This document shows, piece after piece, positions 2,879 to 32,601 of a stretch of 35,345 nt of DNA. Position numbers and translations under genes: made by a program. The stretch comes from Methanosphaera sp. (lineage in GTDB: Archaea; Methanobacteriota; Methanobacteria; Methanobacteriales; Methanobacteriaceae). Within the stretch, counting starts at the first letter, position 1, and each line of letters starts with the position of its first letter. Under the pieces are notes generated by a model. That model saw nothing but the letters and a program-made list of their open reading frames with translations, ran no database searches and was not told where the DNA came from. The stretch spans positions 1 to 35,345 of the forward strand of contig NZ_JAEELZ010000037.1 of NCBI RefSeq assembly GCF_016282985.1, read 5' to 3'.

Positions 2879-3706
2879 TTATTTAGATTTTAATTTTCCA
2901 TAGAAATATGAAGCTGTAGCTCCACCATCAATAAGAAAATCTGAACCAGTTATGAAAGCTCCATTTTCATTAAGCATTAATTGTGCAAGATTTGCTACTT
3001 CATCTGCCGTTCCTGGCCTTCCTGATGGACAATTTGCAAACATATTTTTATAGAAATCTCCACGTGGACCATTAAATTCATCAATTGCGAGTGGTGTTAC
3101 TATTATTCCAGGAGATATAGAATTTATTCGAGCATTTCTTTCGCCCCATTTACAAGCTTCATACATGACTCGCTTAACATTACATCTTTTCGCTAGTTGA
3201 TAAGCATGTAATGTGTCTTTAATGTTTTCGGGCTGTAAAATATCCAAATCAAGTAATTCTTCTGTTGGTGTTGTGGCTAATTGTTCATCAATAGTTGCTC
3301 CCAATTGTTTCATCCTATGTCCTGACTGTGAAGATATGGTAACTCCACTTCCACCTTTTTTTATTACTTTACCTATTTCTTCTAAGAGAACTGCTGTTCC
3401 ATAAAGATCTACTTTAAGAATAGTTTCTATACTTGCTTGTGAAGGAGAAACTCCTGCTGCATTAATAAAGTTACTTATTTCTCCATAATCCTGAGAAGTT
3501 TTAATTAAGTTTTTTATAGATGTTCTACTGGAAATATCACATTCAAGATATTCAACATCAAACCCTGCTTCAATCATAGTTTTTGATATTATTTCAGCGT
3601 TTTCAACGTTTTTATCCCCAATTATCAGTTTTTTACCATAACTTATTCTTCTTGCAATTGCCATTCCTATTTGTCCGGCTCCTGTTAAAACAACAACTTC
3701 CTTCAA
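2879..3706 (-). CDS. Short-chain dehydrogenase/reductase (SDR), copy 1
   Basis: A 275-residue classical SDR. The nucleotide loop TGAGQIG is at residues 8-14, with an acidic D31 suited to NAD(H) selection. The catalytic Tyr-x3-Lys is YQLAK at 169-173, preceded by SSQSG near 125-129. The C-terminal DFLIDGGA motif is typical of the family. The start is TTG at 3706, behind a GGAGGA ribosome site. It is last in a minus-strand group of redox genes and is a paralogue of the SDR at 5493-6347: both carry an unusual SPSQAS stretch after the usual NAG position and the phrase ARINSISPGIIVTPLA. The substrate cannot be told; carbonyl or alcohol oxidoreduction is inferred. Confidence 0.85.
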   Translation of the reverse strand: MKEVVVLTGAGQIGMAIARRISYGKKLIIGDKNVENAEIISKTMIEAGFDVEYLECDISSRTSIKNLIKTSQDYGEISNFINAAGVSPSQASIETILKVDLYGTAVLLEEIGKVIKKGGSGVTISSQSGHRMKQLGATIDEQLATTPTEELLDLDILQPENIKDTLHAYQLAKRCNVKRVMYEACKWGERNARINSISPGIIVTPLAIDEFNGPRGDFYKNMFANCPSGRPGTADEVANLAQLMLNENGAFITGSDFLIDGGATASYFYGKLKSK

Positions 3707-3754
3707 ATTAATTCCTCCATTTAATAATTAACTAGTTTTCTTAGTTTAATGAAG

Positions 3755-4870
3755 TTATTTTTCAAATAAATTTACTACTTTTTCTAATTCTTCACTAATT
3801 TTAATCTGTTGAGGACATACTTTTTCACATGCACCACATTTTACACAAGAGGATGCTTTTGTAAATTTTTCTGCATAATTATCATAATATAAATAATTTA
3901 ACATTTGATCTACTTTGGACTGTTTTTCATCGTTGAAAATTGAGAAATATTTTGATATAGGAATTTGTTTAGGACAATATTTAAAACAATAATCACAGTA
4001 TGTGCACGGAATTTCAATGGAATCATTTATTATATCACGTGCTTGTTTAATTATTTCCAATTCATCGTTATTCATTGTCTTAAAATCTTTAACTATACTC
4101 ATATTTTCCTGAAGTTCTTTTAGATCAGACATTCCACTTAGTACTAATGCTACTGAACTTAAATTTAAGACATAGGATAATGCCCAATTAACTGGACTTT
4201 TTTGGTTATAACTTTGAAATAATTTTTCTACTTTTTCTGGAACATTAACTAAATTTCCACCTTTTAATGGCTCCATAACAAATACATCCAATCCATTATC
4301 CTTAACTATCTCATAACATTTTTTAGCTTGAACTGCATCGTTTTTCCAATCAACATAATTAATTTGAAGTTGTACAAATTCTATATCCTGGTTTTCTGTC
4401 AATACTTGATTTAAAGCTTCAGGAGTTCCATGATGACTTATACCTAATTTATTAATTAAACCTTCCTTTTTAAATTCCCTTAAATAATCAAATACGTTTA
4501 ACTGTTTACAAACACCATTATAAAATAAATCAGAAGTATTATGAACCAAATAATAATCGAAATAATCCAATCCACACCGTTCCAATTGTGTTTGAAAAAT
4601 ATTTTCCGGATTATCATTGATTGTCATTCCATATATTGGCATTTTATCAGCAATTAGAACTTCATCACGAGAATATCTATCTATTACACATTTTTTAATA
4701 GCTTCTTCACTTTTTCCATTATGATAATTAAAACCCGTATCAAAATAACGGCCACCATTTTCAATATAATAATCTACAAGTGTATTAACTTTATTATAAT
4801 CTATTTGACTTACATCACCATTTATAATAGGTAATCTCATAAATCCAAAACCTAACTTAAAATCATTCAT
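3755..4870 (-). CDS. Aldo/keto reductase with C-terminal 2x[4Fe-4S] domain
   Basis: A 371-residue fusion. Residues 1-270 are an aldo/keto reductase TIM barrel with the tetrad visible as D44 and Y49 (FDTGFNYHNG), K76 (ADKMP) and H110 (LVHN). Residues 288-356 carry two cluster motifs, C289-x2-C292-x2-C295-x3-C299 and C342-x2-C345-x2-C348-x3-C352. This architecture is common in anaerobes and suggests ferredoxin-linked reduction of carbonyl compounds rather than simple NADPH use. The ATG follows AGGAGTGG and comes directly after the TGA of the upstream nitroreductase gene (TGAATG), so the two are co-translated. The substrate is unknown. Confidence 0.88.
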   Translation of the reverse strand: MNDFKLGFGFMRLPIINGDVSQIDYNKVNTLVDYYIENGGRYFDTGFNYHNGKSEEAIKKCVIDRYSRDEVLIADKMPIYGMTINDNPENIFQTQLERCGLDYFDYYLVHNTSDLFYNGVCKQLNVFDYLREFKKEGLINKLGISHHGTPEALNQVLTENQDIEFVQLQINYVDWKNDAVQAKKCYEIVKDNGLDVFVMEPLKGGNLVNVPEKVEKLFQSYNQKSPVNWALSYVLNLSSVALVLSGMSDLKELQENMSIVKDFKTMNNDELEIIKQARDIINDSIEIPCTYCDYCFKYCPKQIPISKYFSIFNDEKQSKVDQMLNYLYYDNYAEKFTKASSCVKCGACEKVCPQQIKISEELEKVVNLFEK

Positions 4871-5492: not shown

Positions 5493-6347
5493 TTAATGAA
5501 TTTCTAAATCCATTAATCCACTACTTAATGCAGCAATCGTACCACCATCAATTAATAAATCAATACCAGTTACGAATCCGGCTTTGGTGCTAAGTAAAAA
5601 TTCACTTGCAAAAGCTATTTCATCAGAAGTACCAACCCTTTTTGCACCACATACATCTATCATTCTTTGATAACCTTCTCCTGAACTATTAAATTCATCA
5701 TAAGCAAGTGGAGTAACTATAATTCCAGGACTTATAGAATTAATTCTTGCTCCTCTATCTGCCCATGAAGTTGCTGATGCATATTGAACTCTTAATTGAT
5801 TTGCTTTTTTAGAAACTACATATGCTATTCCAGAATTAGTTATTACCTCTTCACTAAGACAATCTAGTTCCTTGAGTTTATCTGTTTCAGTGATTCTTAA
5901 TAAATGTTCATCTTCCGGACTTAATGGAGAAGGCATGTATCCAGTCATTGAAGAAATAATTAATCCTGCCCCTCCTTTTGCCATTACTTTTCCAAATTCA
6001 TCTAAAGCATATGATGTACCAATTAAATCTAATTTAATTATATGTTCGGGTGATGCCTGTGAAGGAGAAGCACATGCAGTATCTATGAAATACATTACTT
6101 TTCCTAAGGAATCTGCTTTTTGAGCTAATTCTCTGATAGACTCTTCTTCCATAGCATTAGTTACTTGTGTTTCAACATCATATCCAGAATATGTTAATTC
6201 TTTTTTTAATGATTCTAATTTTTCTTCATTTATATCAGCCAGTAATATTTTTTTTCCGGCTGATATTCTTTTAATTATTGCAAGACCCATATCCCCTGCA
6301 CCTAATAATACTACTACTTCCTTTTCTTCGTTTAAATCAAATTTCAT
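5493..6347 (-). CDS. Short-chain dehydrogenase/reductase (SDR), copy 2
   Basis: A 284-residue SDR. The nucleotide loop is LGAGDMG (residues 15-21), a shortened form lacking the usual Thr-Gly start. The catalytic YVVSK is at 176-180 with SSMTG near 132-136. The C-terminal IDLLIDGGTIA matches the family. It shares SPSQAS and ARINSISPGIIVTPLA with the SDR at 2879-3706, so the two are paralogues inside one gene cluster. The ribosome site GGGGTG lies in the last codons of the upstream aldo/keto reductase, whose TAA ends three bases before this ATG, so the pair is coupled. The substrate is unknown. Confidence 0.85.
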   Translation of the reverse strand: MKFDLNEEKEVVVLLGAGDMGLAIIKRISAGKKILLADINEEKLESLKKELTYSGYDVETQVTNAMEEESIRELAQKADSLGKVMYFIDTACASPSQASPEHIIKLDLIGTSYALDEFGKVMAKGGAGLIISSMTGYMPSPLSPEDEHLLRITETDKLKELDCLSEEVITNSGIAYVVSKKANQLRVQYASATSWADRGARINSISPGIIVTPLAYDEFNSSGEGYQRMIDVCGAKRVGTSDEIAFASEFLLSTKAGFVTGIDLLIDGGTIAALSSGLMDLEIH

Positions 6348-6349
6348 AT

Positions 6350-7189
6350 TTACACCCCATACTTTGATATTGCTTCAATAAACATTGGATCATCAATATT
6401 AGCTATTGGATTTCCTGTTTCTAATTCTTTAATTTTTTCCATATCTTCACTTGAAAGCTCAAAATCAAAAATGTTAAAATTTTCAATCATTCTTTCTTTT
6501 TTAACGGATTTTGGGAATACTATTATTCCCCTTTGTAAAATCCATCTTAATATTACTTGAGCAACAGTTTTATCGTACTTTTCTCCTATTTCCTTTAAAA
6601 TAGGATTTGAAAAAATATTATTTTTTCCTTCAGCTAACGGTCCCCATGATTCTATAACTGCATCATATTTTTCATAAAATTTTTCTTGTGAATCCTGTTG
6701 ATAAAATGGATTTATCTCAATTTGATTCACCATAGGTTTTATTTTACTATGTAAAGATAAATTCGTAAATCTGGAAGGAGTGAAATTACACACCCCAATT
6801 GCTTTTACTTTTCCTTCATCATATAAATCTTCCAAAGCTCTCCAAGTAGCAAAAATATCGCCAATGTTCTGATGAATTAAATACAAATCAATGTAATCTG
6901 TTTTTAATTTATTTAATGATTCTTCACATGCTTTTTTTGTTTCTTCATACCCATGGCTTGAATGCCATACTTTTGTTGTTATGAAGAATTCTTCACGGTC
7001 AATTCCACTTTCTTCTATAGCTTCACCAACTTGAGTTTCATTGAAATATGCCTGAGCTGTATCAAAGTGTCTGTAACCAACTTCTATTGCTTTTTTCACT
7101 GCTTCTTTTGTATCTTCTGGTGCTATTTGAAATACACCAAAACCTAATTGTGGTACTTCCAAATTATTTGATAATTTAATATAATCCAT
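6350..7189 (-). CDS. Aldo/keto reductase (AKR5-like)
   Basis: A 279-residue aldo/keto reductase without extra domains. The tetrad is visible as Asp and Tyr in FDTAQAYFNE, Lys in ITTKVW and His in YLIHQ; PKSVKKERMIENFNIFDFEL near the C-terminus is the usual NADP(H)-contact region. The frame is open to ATG 7213, but the TATA box at 7230-7239 places the transcript start near 7210, and GAAGTGAT precedes ATG 7189, so the shorter start (MDYIKLSNNL) is preferred. It is first in a coupled pair with SDR copy 2. Reduction of an aldehyde or ketone is inferred from the family. Confidence 0.87.
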   Translation of the reverse strand: MDYIKLSNNLEVPQLGFGVFQIAPEDTKEAVKKAIEVGYRHFDTAQAYFNETQVGEAIEESGIDREEFFITTKVWHSSHGYEETKKACEESLNKLKTDYIDLYLIHQNIGDIFATWRALEDLYDEGKVKAIGVCNFTPSRFTNLSLHSKIKPMVNQIEINPFYQQDSQEKFYEKYDAVIESWGPLAEGKNNIFSNPILKEIGEKYDKTVAQVILRWILQRGIIVFPKSVKKERMIENFNIFDFELSSEDMEKIKELETGNPIANIDDPMFIEAISKYGV

Positions 7190-26804: not shown

Positions 26805-27722
26805 ATGTGTGGAATTGCAGGAATAATATATAAAGATAAAAAAACACATAAAGTCGGCAAATCATTAACTTCAATGCTTGAATCTTTACAACACAGAGGA
26901 CCGGATTCAGCAGGATTTGCAATATACGGAGGATTAAATTTACCTGAAAATAATTATCAATTAAACATTGAAATTAAAGATAATTCTGAAGCATTAAACC
27001 AAGTAAAAACAACACTTACAGAAATTAGCTCAATATTTCAGGAAGAATTAATCAAATCTGATGAAAAATATAATGTTTACCGTTGCGAAATAAGTCTAAA
27101 TAATTACTCAATGTTAAAACCTTTAATCCGTAATTTAGATGAACTTGATGATGTACAAGTACTTAACGGTTCACATTCATTTGAAATGATAAAGGACATC
27201 GGTAAAGTAAAAGACATTGCAAAAAGATATAATGTTACAAAAAGAACTGGAACTCATGGAATAGGCCATACTAGGTTTGCTACCGAAAGTGGAATAGACA
27301 GATACCATGCACATCCTTATCAAAGTTATATTAGACCAGACATTACTGTAGTACATAATGGACAAATAACAAATTACTGGAAAATTCGGGATCCTCTAGA
27401 AAGAAAGGGACATATCTTCGAAACATTAAACGACACAGAATGTATTGTACATTATATTGCAGATAAATTAAACCAAGGATATAAACTCGAAGAAGTATTA
27501 GAAGAAGCTGTAAAAGATTTGGATGGTCCATTTTCCATACTTGTAGGAACACCTGATGGAATTGGAATTGCAAAAGATAAACTTGGACTTAGACCGGGAG
27601 TAATGGCAGAAAATGATGACATTTTTGCAATAGCTTCCGAAGAAATGTCACTGCAGGATGTGTTGGATACAGATCATGTGGAACAAATCGCACCCGGAGA
27701 AACTAGATCATATACATTATAA
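26805..27722 (+). CDS. Glutamate synthase amidotransferase subunit (archaeal GltB domain 1)
   Basis: A 305-residue class II (Ntn) glutamine amidotransferase. Cys2 in MCGIAGI is the nucleophile exposed after Met removal. QHRGPDSAGFAIY (about 29-41), GIGHTRFATESG, HAHPYQ and VVHNGQITNY are the family landmarks. It releases ammonia from glutamine for the FMN subunit. In bacterial glutamate synthase this domain is the N-terminus of one large chain; here it is a separate gene, as in many archaea. A segment of about 85 residues (about 45-130) is inserted between the first two blocks. It is first in a four-gene operon. Confidence 0.88.
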   Translation: MCGIAGIIYKDKKTHKVGKSLTSMLESLQHRGPDSAGFAIYGGLNLPENNYQLNIEIKDNSEALNQVKTTLTEISSIFQEELIKSDEKYNVYRCEISLNNYSMLKPLIRNLDELDDVQVLNGSHSFEMIKDIGKVKDIAKRYNVTKRTGTHGIGHTRFATESGIDRYHAHPYQSYIRPDITVVHNGQITNYWKIRDPLERKGHIFETLNDTECIVHYIADKLNQGYKLEEVLEEAVKDLDGPFSILVGTPDGIGIAKDKLGLRPGVMAENDDIFAIASEEMSLQDVLDTDHVEQIAPGETRSYTL

Positions 27723-27735
27723 GAAGGGAATAAAA

Positions 27736-28407
27736 GTGAGAAAGTATATAATAGATGCAAAAAATATGGAAGAAAAAGAATTGAATCGTTCAATTAAAGA
27801 ACATGCAGTAAATTACGATAAATTAATTATTAAAAATCCACAATCAAACCATAATATAGCTGCAGGCCTAACAGAATCAGTTGAAATAGAAATTGATGGT
27901 TCTGCAGGATATTTTGTTGGAACAATGGTTGATGGTCCAAAAATACATGTTAAACAAAACGCAGGATGGTTTGCCGGAGATAATATGACTTGTGGTGAAT
28001 TAATTATCGAAGGAGGAACTGGTGATGGAGCAGGTCAAGGAATTTATGGTGGAACCGTTGTTGTGAAAGGTGATACAGGTTCACGTACTGGAGAAATCAT
28101 GAAAGGTGGAACAGTTATTATTGGTGGAAATAGTGGTTACATGACTGGTTTATTGATGATGGGTGGTCGTTTGATAGTACTCGGAAATGTGACAGATGAT
28201 GCTGGTGAATCTATTATGAGAGGTACAATATATGTGCTTGGAGAAGTTAAAAGTTTGGGAAAACATGCACAAATGGAACAAACCACTTTAGAAGATCAAA
28301 AAGAATTGAAAAGAATATTAACAAAATATGGATTTGAAATTACAGATGTTGATTATACCAATTTCAAAAAAATTACAAACAACTCCAAACAGGAATTAAT
28401 GTGGTGA
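27736..28407 (+). CDS. Glutamate synthase GXGXG subunit (archaeal GltB domain 3)
   Basis: A 223-residue protein built of repeating G-x-x-G-x-x-x-G turns, such as AGWFAGDNMTCGELIIEGGT, GQGIYGGTVVVKG and SGYMTGLLMMGGRLIVLG, which make the right-handed beta helix found at the C-terminus of glutamate synthase. It is structural, joining the amidotransferase and FMN parts. The frame is open further upstream, overlapping the previous gene, but GTG 27736 (MRKYIIDAKN) follows AGAAGGGA and is preferred. The stop lies inside the GTGGTGA that serves as ribosome site for the next gene. Confidence 0.87.
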   Translation: MRKYIIDAKNMEEKELNRSIKEHAVNYDKLIIKNPQSNHNIAAGLTESVEIEIDGSAGYFVGTMVDGPKIHVKQNAGWFAGDNMTCGELIIEGGTGDGAGQGIYGGTVVVKGDTGSRTGEIMKGGTVIIGGNSGYMTGLLMMGGRLIVLGNVTDDAGESIMRGTIYVLGEVKSLGKHAQMEQTTLEDQKELKRILTKYGFEITDVDYTNFKKITNNSKQELMW

Positions 28408-28412
28408 AAACA

Positions 28413-29489
28413 ATGACAGAACATAAAATAGCTATGGTAGGAACTCCTTGTGGAATAATGGCAGCATCAAAAATACAACACTACACTGAAACACCAATAT
28501 ATTTTAAAATAGGTTTATTCTGTATGGAAAACTTTTCATACTTATACTTTACAAAACTATTGGAAAGTATTGATTTGACAATGAATGATATTGAAAAATT
28601 CAGAATTGAAAAAGGATATGCATTTTTTAACTTAAAAAATGGTGAACAAATAAAAATATCATTATCTAAAGCTAAGACAGTAGTTAGAAAAAACTGTAAT
28701 ATTTGTGTAGAATTAACTTCAGAAACATCTGATGTATCTGTAGGTTCTATTGGTTCAGAAAATGGATGGTCAACAGTAATTATCAGAACTGAGAAAGGAG
28801 AAAAAATTATAGAAGATGCTATAAAACAAAAATATCTTAAGGCAAAAGAATTAACTCCTTCACAATTGAAACTTTTGGAGAGAATAGCTTCAAATAAAGC
28901 CAAAGAAAATCTTGAAAATATAAATGAAAGAGAATCAAAAGCACGTCCTGTATTATACCAAAGAGATAAAACAGATGAAAATATCTTAGAAGAGAATTCT
29001 GAATCAAACTTTGATGATTTAAGAGCAAATGTAATCAATGTTGGAGCTTGTGTACTCTGTGGAGCCTGCGAATATGTATGTCCTGAAGACTACATTTTAA
29101 TCAAGAATACAAAACCACGTAAAAAACGAAAAAAATGTCCTGATGATTGTCATATGTGTTTTACAGTTTGTCCAAGAACATTTGTCCCTATCAATCTTAG
29201 AAATGATATTAGTAAAAAAATTGGTGATTATAGGAAAATTTTAACTGTAAAATCATTAAAACATAATAGAGGCCAGGATGGAGTTGTGGTAACTACAATA
29301 CTGGATTATCTTATTTCAAATAAGATAGTGACTGAAACATTAATCGTTGATAAAAAAGAGGATTTAGATTGGAAACCTGTAGCAAAACTTACAAAAGATA
29401 TCGATGAAATAGTTAAAGCTTCAGGAACAAAGTATTCTGTTTGTCCAGTATTTAAACCTTTAAAACAATTAAAAAAGGATGTGATTTAA
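28413..29489 (+). CDS. F420-type FrhB-like subunit with swapped domain order and a ferredoxin domain
   Basis: A 358-residue protein. Residues 1-185 match the C-terminal part of FrhB (F420-reducing hydrogenase beta): VGTPCGIMAASK (9-20), IGLFCMENFSY, C95/C98 (CNIC), SDVSVGSIGSENGWSTVIIRT and the helix KLLERIASNKAKENL. Residues 207-255 are a two-cluster ferredoxin (C213, C216, C219, C223; C242, C246, C249, C253). Residues 267-358 match the N-terminal part of FrhB (NRGQDGVVVTTILDYLIS ... ASGTKYSVCPVFKPLKQL). The usual order is N then C, so this chain is permuted. It probably supplies electrons from reduced F420 to glutamate synthase. ATG 28413 follows GTGGTGA; the frame is also open from GTG 28401. 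Confidence 0.8.
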   Translation: MTEHKIAMVGTPCGIMAASKIQHYTETPIYFKIGLFCMENFSYLYFTKLLESIDLTMNDIEKFRIEKGYAFFNLKNGEQIKISLSKAKTVVRKNCNICVELTSETSDVSVGSIGSENGWSTVIIRTEKGEKIIEDAIKQKYLKAKELTPSQLKLLERIASNKAKENLENINERESKARPVLYQRDKTDENILEENSESNFDDLRANVINVGACVLCGACEYVCPEDYILIKNTKPRKKRKKCPDDCHMCFTVCPRTFVPINLRNDISKKIGDYRKILTVKSLKHNRGQDGVVVTTILDYLISNKIVTETLIVDKKEDLDWKPVAKLTKDIDEIVKASGTKYSVCPVFKPLKQLKKDVI

Positions 29490-30968
29490 ATGCCATTTGA
29501 CGTTAACAGAAAATCAGAAATATGTAAACGAAATAACGATAGACCAGGATGTTGTTGGTATTTATGTGACAATCCTAAAAAATCTTTATGTAAAAATTGT
29601 TATAGCTGTTATAGTAATTGTCCACATGGGGTATATGAAATAATTAATGATGAACCACAACCAGTTCATCAAGAAAACTGTGTTGGCTGTAAAATTTGTG
29701 AAGAAATGTGTCCAAATAATGCAATATATGTAACACCATTACCTGATGAACACAGAGGAATCTGGTCAAATTATACCATGTTGGAAATTAAAAGAAAATC
29801 CATAGAAGGTTCTTACAAAGTAAGAGGATGTGGTGCAACACGTCATGTTCCATCATTTGATGATTTAACAATATTACCTGCTCAAGTATCAAGACCACCT
29901 ATCGATAAATACAGGGAACCATGTAACTCAGAAGTAACATTAGGAGATAGGTTTGCAGAAAATCCTATAAAAATTTCAACGCCTATTATGATTGGAGCTA
30001 TGTCATTTGGAGCTATTAGTAAAGAAGCAAAGATAGCATTAGCCAGAGGATCAACACTTGCCGGAACTATAACAAATACTGGTGAAGGTGGAATGCTACC
30101 TGAAGAAAGACATTTTGCAGACAAATTAATTGCTCAATATGCTTCAGGAAGATTTGGAGTTTCAGCAAATTACCTGAATAATGCAGATGCAATAGAAATA
30201 AAAATAGGACAAGGTTCAAAAGCCGGAATGGGAGGACATTTACTTGCTGAAAAAGTTACAGCAGAAGTGGCAAAAATTAGGAATATACCTCAAGGAACTA
30301 ATGCTTTAAGCCCTGCAAGACATATGGATATAGTAGGTCCTGAAGATTTAGGTATGAAAATTAATCAATTACGTGAAATAACAGATTGGAAGATACCTAT
30401 TATGGTAAAATTCACATCAGGTAGAGTTAAGGAAGATGTTAAAATTGCTGCCAAAGCAGGAGCAGATATAATTGTTGTTGATGGTATGCAGGGAGGTACC
30501 GGTGCTGGTCCGGAAGTAGTTACTGAACACTCTGGAATTCCTACAATACAAGCAATATTAGAAGCAGATAATGCTCTTAGAGATATAAACCTTAGAGAAG
30601 AAGTAAGTCTTGTAGCTGCAGGAGGTATACGTTCCGGAGCTGATGTAGCTAAAGCAATAGCATTGGGTGCAGATGCAGCATATATTGGAACAGCAGCTTT
30701 AATCTCATTAGGTTGTAAAGTATGTCAGGGATGTAGTAAAGGAACATGCCCTAAAGGAATAGCAACTCAAAATCGATTATTTAGACGAAGATTGGATCCT
30801 GTTAGAGGTGGAGAACAAGTTGCAAATTACATTAAAGTAATGACCGAAGAAGCAAAAATGTTAACTCAGCAAGCAGGAAATACAGATATTGAAAAATTAG
30901 AGAAAGAAGATTTAGTAGCCTTAACAATGGAAGCATCCCATATTACTGGAGTACCATTGGTACGGTAA
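29490..30968 (+). CDS. Glutamate synthase FMN subunit with N-terminal ferredoxin (archaeal GltB domain 2)
   Basis: A 492-residue protein. It has an N-terminal two-cluster ferredoxin (C34, C37, C40, C44; C64, C67, C70, C74), then the FMN TIM barrel of glutamate synthase: PIMIGAMSFGAISKEAKIAL, SPARHMDIVGPEDL, GGTGAGPEV near 335-343 and AAGGIRSGADVAKAIALGAD. C409, C412, C415 and C420 (CQGCSKGTCPKGIAT) supply the family's Fe-S cluster. It makes glutamate from 2-oxoglutarate and the ammonia released by the amidotransferase subunit. The ATG abuts the TAA of the FrhB-like gene and follows GGATGTGAT. It is the last gene of the operon. Confidence 0.92.
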   Translation: MPFDVNRKSEICKRNNDRPGCCWYLCDNPKKSLCKNCYSCYSNCPHGVYEIINDEPQPVHQENCVGCKICEEMCPNNAIYVTPLPDEHRGIWSNYTMLEIKRKSIEGSYKVRGCGATRHVPSFDDLTILPAQVSRPPIDKYREPCNSEVTLGDRFAENPIKISTPIMIGAMSFGAISKEAKIALARGSTLAGTITNTGEGGMLPEERHFADKLIAQYASGRFGVSANYLNNADAIEIKIGQGSKAGMGGHLLAEKVTAEVAKIRNIPQGTNALSPARHMDIVGPEDLGMKINQLREITDWKIPIMVKFTSGRVKEDVKIAAKAGADIIVVDGMQGGTGAGPEVVTEHSGIPTIQAILEADNALRDINLREEVSLVAAGGIRSGADVAKAIALGADAAYIGTAALISLGCKVCQGCSKGTCPKGIATQNRLFRRRLDPVRGGEQVANYIKVMTEEAKMLTQQAGNTDIEKLEKEDLVALTMEASHITGVPLVR

Positions 30969-31263: not shown

Positions 31264-32601
31264 TTATATATTTAAGTATCTTTCACGCTCATAATCAAAT
31301 ACCTGTATTCTATAATCATCCCATTCCTGACGTTTAATATTGTAGAATTGATTGTATACGAAATCACCTAAAGCATTTCTTACAATATCATCATTTTCTA
31401 ATTCATGATAAGCTTCCCATAAACTTGTTGGTAATGTTTTAATACCTTTTTCAGCCAATTCTTCAGGAGTATGTTCAAATGCATTGAATTCTGTTGGTTC
31501 TCCAGGATCCATTTTATTATCCATACCATCCAAACCAGCTTCTAACAATACTGCAAATGCCAAGTAAGGATTACATGAAGGATCAGCAGATCGACATTCA
31601 ATTCTTGTTCCTATACCTCTTGAAGCAGGAATCCTCAATAATGTTGACCTATTTTTAAGACCATAAGCAATGTAACATGGTGCTTCGTATCCAGGCACTA
31701 AACGTTTATATGAATTTACAGTAGGAGATAAAATTGCAGATAATGCTGGAGCATGTTTTAATAACCCACCAATAAAATACAATGCCTCTTGAGATAACTG
31801 AGTTTCAGTATCAGGATCATAGAAAATATTTTTTCCATCCTTAAATAAGCTCTGATTACAATGCATTCCACTTCCATTAACACCCAAGAATGGTTTTGGC
31901 ATGAAAGTTACTTTATATCCTAAATTATGAACTAATGCTTTAATAGCTTGTTTAAAAGTAATTACAGCATCAGCAGTTTTTAATGCATCTGCAAATCTGA
32001 AATCAATTTCATGTTGTCCCGGAGCAACTTCATGATGACTAACTTCTATGTTGAAATCTAATTTTTCGAGCCCTAAAACAATCTCTCTTCTTATATCAGT
32101 TCCATGGTCTAATGGTTCAACATCAAAATAATCTGCTTCATCTGCCGGTTTATAATTACCCTTTTCATCTTTATCAATGATGAAAAATTCCGGTTCAGGA
32201 CCCATATTAAATTGATATCCTCTTTCCTCAGCTTTTTTCAATGATTTTTTTAATACACCTCTTGGATCTCCTTCAAAATGTGTTCCATCAGTATTGTAAA
32301 CATCACATATGAATCTACAAGTTCCTTTATCTTCTGGTCTCCAAGGTAATGAAGAAAATGTACTAATATCTGGTTTTAATGCTAAATCACTATTGTTTAT
32401 TTCAGTAAATCCAGGTACTGAAGAACCGTCAAATAACAATCCATCTTTAATTATATCTTCAACATCATCAGGTTTTTTCAATGATACAGCCATACTTTTT
32501 GGAATACCATGAATATCAGAAAATTGTAATCTTAAAAATTTATAACCAAATTGATCTACCTGTTTAATTATTTCATCTATTTTATCATCTTCTATTGACA
32601 T
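31264..32601 (-). CDS. glnA: Glutamine synthetase type I
   Basis: A 445-residue GSI. Landmarks: [17 protein letters not shown] (about 23-39), [11 protein letters not shown] (about 55-65), [39 protein letters not shown], and the [32 protein letters not shown] block with catalytic residues near 315-350. It condenses glutamate and ammonia with ATP to glutamine, which feeds the convergent glutamate synthase operon. The length fits the short GSI-alpha type, and the Tyr adenylylation site of the longer bacterial form is not seen. AGGGTGA lies ahead of the ATG. The promoter carries an NrpR-type operator. Confidence 0.97.

Follow-up and report, generated by a model that had tools for sequence, protein, structure and literature searches.

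A circularly permuted FrhB protein encoded in the glutamate synthase operon of Methanosphaera

Introduction

Does an FrhB-family subunit whose halves stand in reverse order belong to glutamate synthase, and could it supply that enzyme with electrons from F420H2? The locus that raises this question lies in the window analysed here, the whole 35,345-nt contig NZ_JAEELZ010000037.1 of a Methanosphaera sp. genome (GCF_016282985.1). A preliminary description, relying on the order of motifs, read the protein as a circular permutant of FrhB and as the probable F420H2 input module of glutamate synthase. An F420 subunit of glutamate synthase was proposed by Susanti and Mukhopadhyay 2012, who named the systems FGltS(I) and FGltS(II), and Kaster 2011 listed MTH193 as an F420-dependent glutamate synthase that "remains to be proven".

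Results

The FrhB-family gene lies within the glutamate synthase operon

The gene of the permuted FrhB protein (pFrhB; 358 residues, the putative F420 subunit of FGltS(II)) occupies 28413..29489 on the + strand, with an ATG at 28413 and a stop codon at 29487-29489, and its orthologues begin at an equivalent MSEHK-like position. It is placed, as first described, between the genes of the GXGXG subunit (27736..28407, +; PF01493, E 1.8e-29) and the FMN-containing catalytic subunit GltS (29490..30968, +; PF01645, E 7.1e-129), with near-zero intergenic spacing. GltS itself has two N-terminal [4Fe-4S] motifs (Fer4 match at residues 31-80). The operon begins with a class II amidotransferase, the glutaminase subunit, which starts MCGIAG (26805..27722, +; PF13522/PF13537, operon-conserved). 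pFrhB shares its operon with glutaminase, GXGXG and FMN GltS genes, as in FGltS(II).

The listed GXGXG reading frame starts at ATG 27658 and overlaps the end of the glutaminase gene by way of an extra segment, 27658-27735. GXGXG orthologues (225–229 aa) align from residue 24–31 of this frame; since its first 23–30 residues are absent from them, translation probably begins at GTG 27736 instead. A convergent glutamine synthetase gene (31264-32601) lies just downstream of the operon, making this an ammonia-assimilation neighbourhood. The order GATase-GXGXG-pFrhB-GltS recurs in what are presumably genomes of Methanosphaera and of many Methanobrevibacter, as well as in Methanothermobacter-like and Methanothermus-like ones; one Methanothermobacter-like genome (G035) has the operon and order of the pFrhB locus.

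Domain order marks pFrhB as a circular permutant

Pfam places the C domain of the family first and the N domain last. FrhB_FdhB_C covers residues 4-148 (28422..28856, +; PF04432, E 6.5e-44, 149.9 bits, cut-off 23.3) and carries the cluster ligands Cys13, 37, 95 and 98, the F420 loop S109-V-G and the I65-x-K67-G68 turn. Residues 149-200 (28857..29012, +) comprise the C-terminal helix of the C domain and a new linker, with predicted helices at 149-176 and 188-197. The ferredoxin domain with two [4Fe-4S] motifs follows at residues 201-258 (29013..29186, +; Fer4 models match about 207-256), and its cysteines are C213, C216, C219, C223 and C242, C246, C249, C253. Finally, FrhB_FdhB_N covers residues 284-351 (29262..29465, +; PF04422, E 5.4e-16, 58.9 bits, cut-off 22) and carries the Q288-D-G FAD-pyrophosphate motif and the K340-Y341 loop. 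Both family models thus score above their cut-offs in the order opposite to the linear N-before-C order of FrhB/FdhB proteins; because that order is no condition of homology, pFrhB is marked as a variant of the family and not excluded from it. By contrast, Pfam finds the canonical order in the FrhB of the same genome (N 14-90, C 99-249). The layout proposed earlier, a C half and an N half enclosing two [4Fe-4S] motifs (213–253), is therefore what Pfam reports, PF04422 does not precede PF04432, and each of the motifs then quoted (GTPC, CMENFSY, CxxC, VGSIGS, GQDG and SGTKYSVCP) is present.

Consistent with this, the FrhB-fold chains displayed in a PDB search match pFrhB as two pieces in swapped order. 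Specifically, residues 198-347 align to residues 7-164 of 8riu_B, while residues 5-177 align to its residues 177-352. In a rotation scan against a profile built solely from 41 canonical-order proteins, the best single domain of native pFrhB scores 183.3 bits, and rotation at 180-196, within the linker region, gives one continuous domain of 315.5 bits spanning profile positions 2-350. A canonical protein, used as control, scores best unrotated. The ends of native pFrhB thus fall where canonical FrhB passes from its N to its C domain, and joining them, as had been proposed, restores a continuous FrhB. On the strength of the Pfam order, the PDB alignments and the rotation scan, we regard pFrhB as a circular permutant of FrhB with near certainty.

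Cofactor signatures and a predicted single fold are retained

AlphaFold2, run on pFrhB with 35 permuted relatives, returned one globule with a mean pLDDT of 91.2 and a pTM of 0.91, values at which the two halves of the model are confidently placed relative to each other. In a Foldseek search, whose alignments follow sequence order and so cover one half at a time, the C half matches solved Frh, CODH-zeta, FwdI and Fsr chains at about 2.2 Å.

Over the 35 relatives, C13, C37, C95, C98, the eight ferredoxin cysteines, Q288-D289-G290, G338, Y341 and S109-x-G111 are invariant or nearly so. K340 is kept in most glutamate-synthase-type relatives, and the QDGG motif has V at its fourth position in pFrhB, against G in most relatives. 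When mapped onto the FrhB of the same genome, these residues coincide with its cluster ligands (C13/37/95/98 correspond to C108/138/196/199), the QDGG FAD-pyrophosphate motif, the K-Y loop and the IxKG turn, with QDG, GTKY (G338-T-K-Y341), CMENF, I-x-K-G and S-x-G all retained; the CMENF loop aligns to the isoalloxazine-ring loop of FrhB. The signatures match the FAD and cluster residues characterised in Frh (PMC3591093, PMC3930138). Judged from these sequence signatures, FAD would be bound jointly by both halves of pFrhB.

Occurrence of pFrhB follows that of glutamate synthase

The permuted form is found in 128 of 152 Methanobacteriota genomes, as a near-full-length colinear copy in 124. pFrhB and GltS are both present in 124 genomes, 21 have no intact pair and 7 are mismatched (Fisher p 8e-19 before correction for relatedness, a value that overstates the evidence because the genomes are related). 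The mismatches are four genomes with pFrhB and without GltS, each 80% complete or less, and three with GltS and without pFrhB (G023, G068 and G108). In G023 (L237; 99% complete, 300 contigs), the glutaminase-GXGXG-GltS operon is present, and permuted FrhB was not found in this assembly.

In 33 Methanobacteriota genomes pFrhB is unlinked from gltS, lying either on a different contig or well away from the operon; the distance sometimes reaches hundreds of kilobases on a complete chromosome (G080, G075 and G051). In G142 the pFrhB gene comes after GltS. In G052 (L234, L235), frameshifts and stops disrupt pFrhB as well as the glt operon, to which it is unlinked, while their flanks look mostly intact. 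That the permuted form is nearly universal among Methanobacteriota, and tracks gltS even if unlinked, is new as far as we have found.

Permuted FrhB proteins outside glutamate synthase

Near-full-length permuted proteins also occur in 19 of 23 genomes of a second archaeal phylum, and no gltS adjoins any of the second-phylum copies examined. Instead, permuted FrhB lies upstream of the gamma/delta/alpha/beta genes of pyruvate:ferredoxin oxidoreductase, POR (L116, L118, L119, L121 and L124; in L125 porC is the only POR gene seen after it), upstream of mtd (L112, L115, L117 and L122) or within a molybdopterin oxidoreductase/cytochrome cluster (L123). These POR, MTD and molybdopterin assignments come from Pfam for representatives and from sequence similarity to them for the remainder. 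Mtd is the F420-dependent methylene-H4MPT dehydrogenase. Three of the copies with mtd directly after them (L122:7210-8673, L115:7366-8829 and L112:1567-3027) encode permuted FrhB proteins with additional C-terminal sequence, about 487 aa in all. Because the permuted proteins of other archaea adjoin other oxidoreductases, the permutation is not confined to glutamate synthase.

A survey of the phylum of G177, with five candidates scored per genome, found a permuted copy before porC in 1 of 394 sampled genomes (G183, the same place as G575). In G591, a single ORF at a contig end (L173:5036-6667) joins permuted FrhB to PorB, as a fusion or an assembly effect, with permuted FrhB taking the place of roughly the first 30 PorB residues. 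In L120, FrhB genes of both kinds, canonical and permuted (3108-4226 and 5518-6633), lie at most 1.3 kb apart, and a POR alpha gene comes after them. One apparent permuted protein (L091, match residues 2-352) was rejected as a canonical Fsr, and one apparent colinear copy (G656, 5-348) as two tandem canonical genes.

An FrhB next to POR has been described in ANME-1 (FrhB6; PMC9012536), and the pairing itself is therefore not new; the pairing of POR with the permuted form was not found in our literature search. An F420-linked POR in these other archaea is plausible, and F420 reduction by pyruvate would be the likelier direction by the redox-potential argument of PMC9012536.

The swap probably has a single origin

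The distinct fetched ORFs that carry both domains divide into 103 with C-N order and 59 with N-C order, with none mixed. In an IQ-TREE analysis of domain-matched sequences, one branch splits 34 permuted from 34 canonical rows with support of 60/88, and a single order change is seen in 54% of bootstraps. A single origin is favoured by this split, and we hold it to be reasonably probable. The permuted proteins of Methanobacteriota, of the second phylum and of two additional genomes probably form one lineage.

Homology of pFrhB to the CODH-zeta and FwdI chains (8riu_B and 8rja_E) is unbroken across the Fer4-to-N junction, which suggests that the parent probably had the order Fer4-N-C. A large archaeal genome family has tandem canonical FrhB genes (L174:1-1746, L176:4157-6776 and L184:1119-3748), an arrangement from which a permutation by duplication and loss could arise.

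Discussion

Taken with the operon and the co-occurrence, the cofactor signatures suggest that pFrhB is very probably a permuted F420-FAD-FeS module that passes electrons from F420H2 to glutamate synthase. A Fer4-N-C module of the Fsr-N/FpoF type would have been opened between its N and C domains, and its old C-terminus re-joined to the ferredoxin domain by a linker of roughly 20 residues, giving C-linker-Fer4-N; the permuted chain would fold back to a single FrhB unit. In Methanobacteriota, F420H2 would be oxidised with transfer of a hydride to FAD, from which electrons may travel through the [4Fe-4S] cluster of the FrhB part (C13/37/95/98), then both ferredoxin clusters and the Fe-S clusters of GltS to FMN, where 2-oxoglutarate and glutaminase-derived ammonia would yield glutamate. 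Cofactor binding, the path, its direction and the formation of a pFrhB-GltS complex are all predictions. The role as input module put forward in the preliminary description gains indirect support from the conserved FAD, F420-loop and cluster signatures, the location in the glt operon of many genomes, the 124 genomes with both proteins against 7 mismatched ones, the 33 unlinked co-occurrences and the joint decay in G052. In addition, the pairing is analogous to that in other archaea, where canonical FrhB adjoins gltS.

A different partner is conceivable. pFrhB could be a general F420H2:ferredoxin oxidoreductase serving a ferredoxin-dependent GltS, with a loose operon link, a reading that fits the unlinked genes, the POR, mtd or molybdopterin oxidoreductase neighbours in other archaea, the ferredoxin domain of GltS itself and the presence of GltS without permuted FrhB in G023. 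We consider it improbable, as pFrhB presence follows GltS across the 152 genomes, both are decayed in G052, and in the operon pFrhB sits between two GltS subunits at near-zero spacing. That the reversed order is an artefact of a frameshift, a chimeric contig or two unrelated domains has a negligible chance: we found no point in its favour, and near-full-length colinear copies in 124/152 and 19/23 genomes of two phyla rule it out, as do complete single-contig genomes, one open frame and a confident single fold.

The history of the swap also admits other readings. Several independent origins are possible but rather unlikely; FastTree trees set L126, a long branch in IQ-TREE, outside the main permuted group, and the modest support for the single-branch split points the same way, but the careful tree needs one change for 34 permuted and 34 canonical rows, and the cut point and C-Fer4-N layout are identical in all permuted proteins, without a mixed-order one. 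Still less probable is descent from an FdhB-type protein (N-C-Fer4). The circular order would be identical, and Susanti and Mukhopadhyay 2012 name the subunit an FdhB homologue, although their own trees place it with FrhB. In pFrhB the ferredoxin domain does follow the C domain, but the N domain comes after it, and the ferredoxin domain is directly before, and colinear with, the N domain, as in Fsr-N/FpoF-type proteins and in the 8riu_B and 8rja_E alignments. The 388-aa FdhB-like protein of the same genome matches the C and N parts with 77 and 36 bits, compared with 175 and 97 for FrhB. A single origin from a Fer4-N-C parent accordingly remains our preferred reading. Whether one ancient permutation founded a separate lineage of portable F420 modules across several archaeal phyla, serving glutamate synthase in Methanobacteriota and POR (once apparently fused to PorB), Mtd and molybdopterin enzymes elsewhere, we judge to be evenly balanced. 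If true, it implies undescribed F420-linked forms of POR, Mtd and molybdopterin enzymes; permuted FrhB beside POR suggests that uncultured archaea may possess F420-linked pyruvate oxidoreductases. The wider permuted lineage with partners other than GltS appears undescribed in the literature searched.

Comparison with known systems

A search for "circular permutation" or "circularly permuted" with FrhB or F420 hydrogenase returned no relevant paper. However, in Mills et al. 2013 (PMC3591093, Fig. 9 legend) the Methanothermobacter marburgensis orthologue aligns C-half first, so the permutation of the glutamate synthase FrhB was already in print, barely noticed. Redox enzymes seldom occur in nature as circular permutants with all cofactor signatures intact; pFrhB shifts the termini of a module plugged into many archaeal enzymes, and it offers a candidate for the F420-dependent glutamate synthase of methanogens, gut methanogens included, which has long been unproven.

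The closest known system is Methanothermobacter FGltS(II) (MTBMA_c06440 / MTH193 and neighbours; F420 subunit ADL58239), whose operon and protein are orthologous to the pFrhB system and differ by sequence divergence only (about 48% identity); gene placement varies within the family. FGltS(I)-like systems of Methanococcales-like and Halobacteriota-like genomes likewise have an FrhB-family subunit beside glutaminase, GXGXG and FMN GltS, but that subunit has the canonical Fer4-N-C order, the genes run GATase-GltS-GXGXG-FrhB, and GltS is about 45–50% identical. Fsr-N, FpoF/FqoF, CODH zeta (8riu) and FwdI (8rja) share the three domains, clusters and FAD signatures of pFrhB, arranged as Fer4-N-C rather than C-Fer4-N. 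The FrhB of F420-reducing hydrogenase shares the N and C domains, FAD and one [4Fe-4S] cluster with pFrhB, whereas its domains follow the N-C order and the ferredoxin domain resides on FrhG instead of FrhB.
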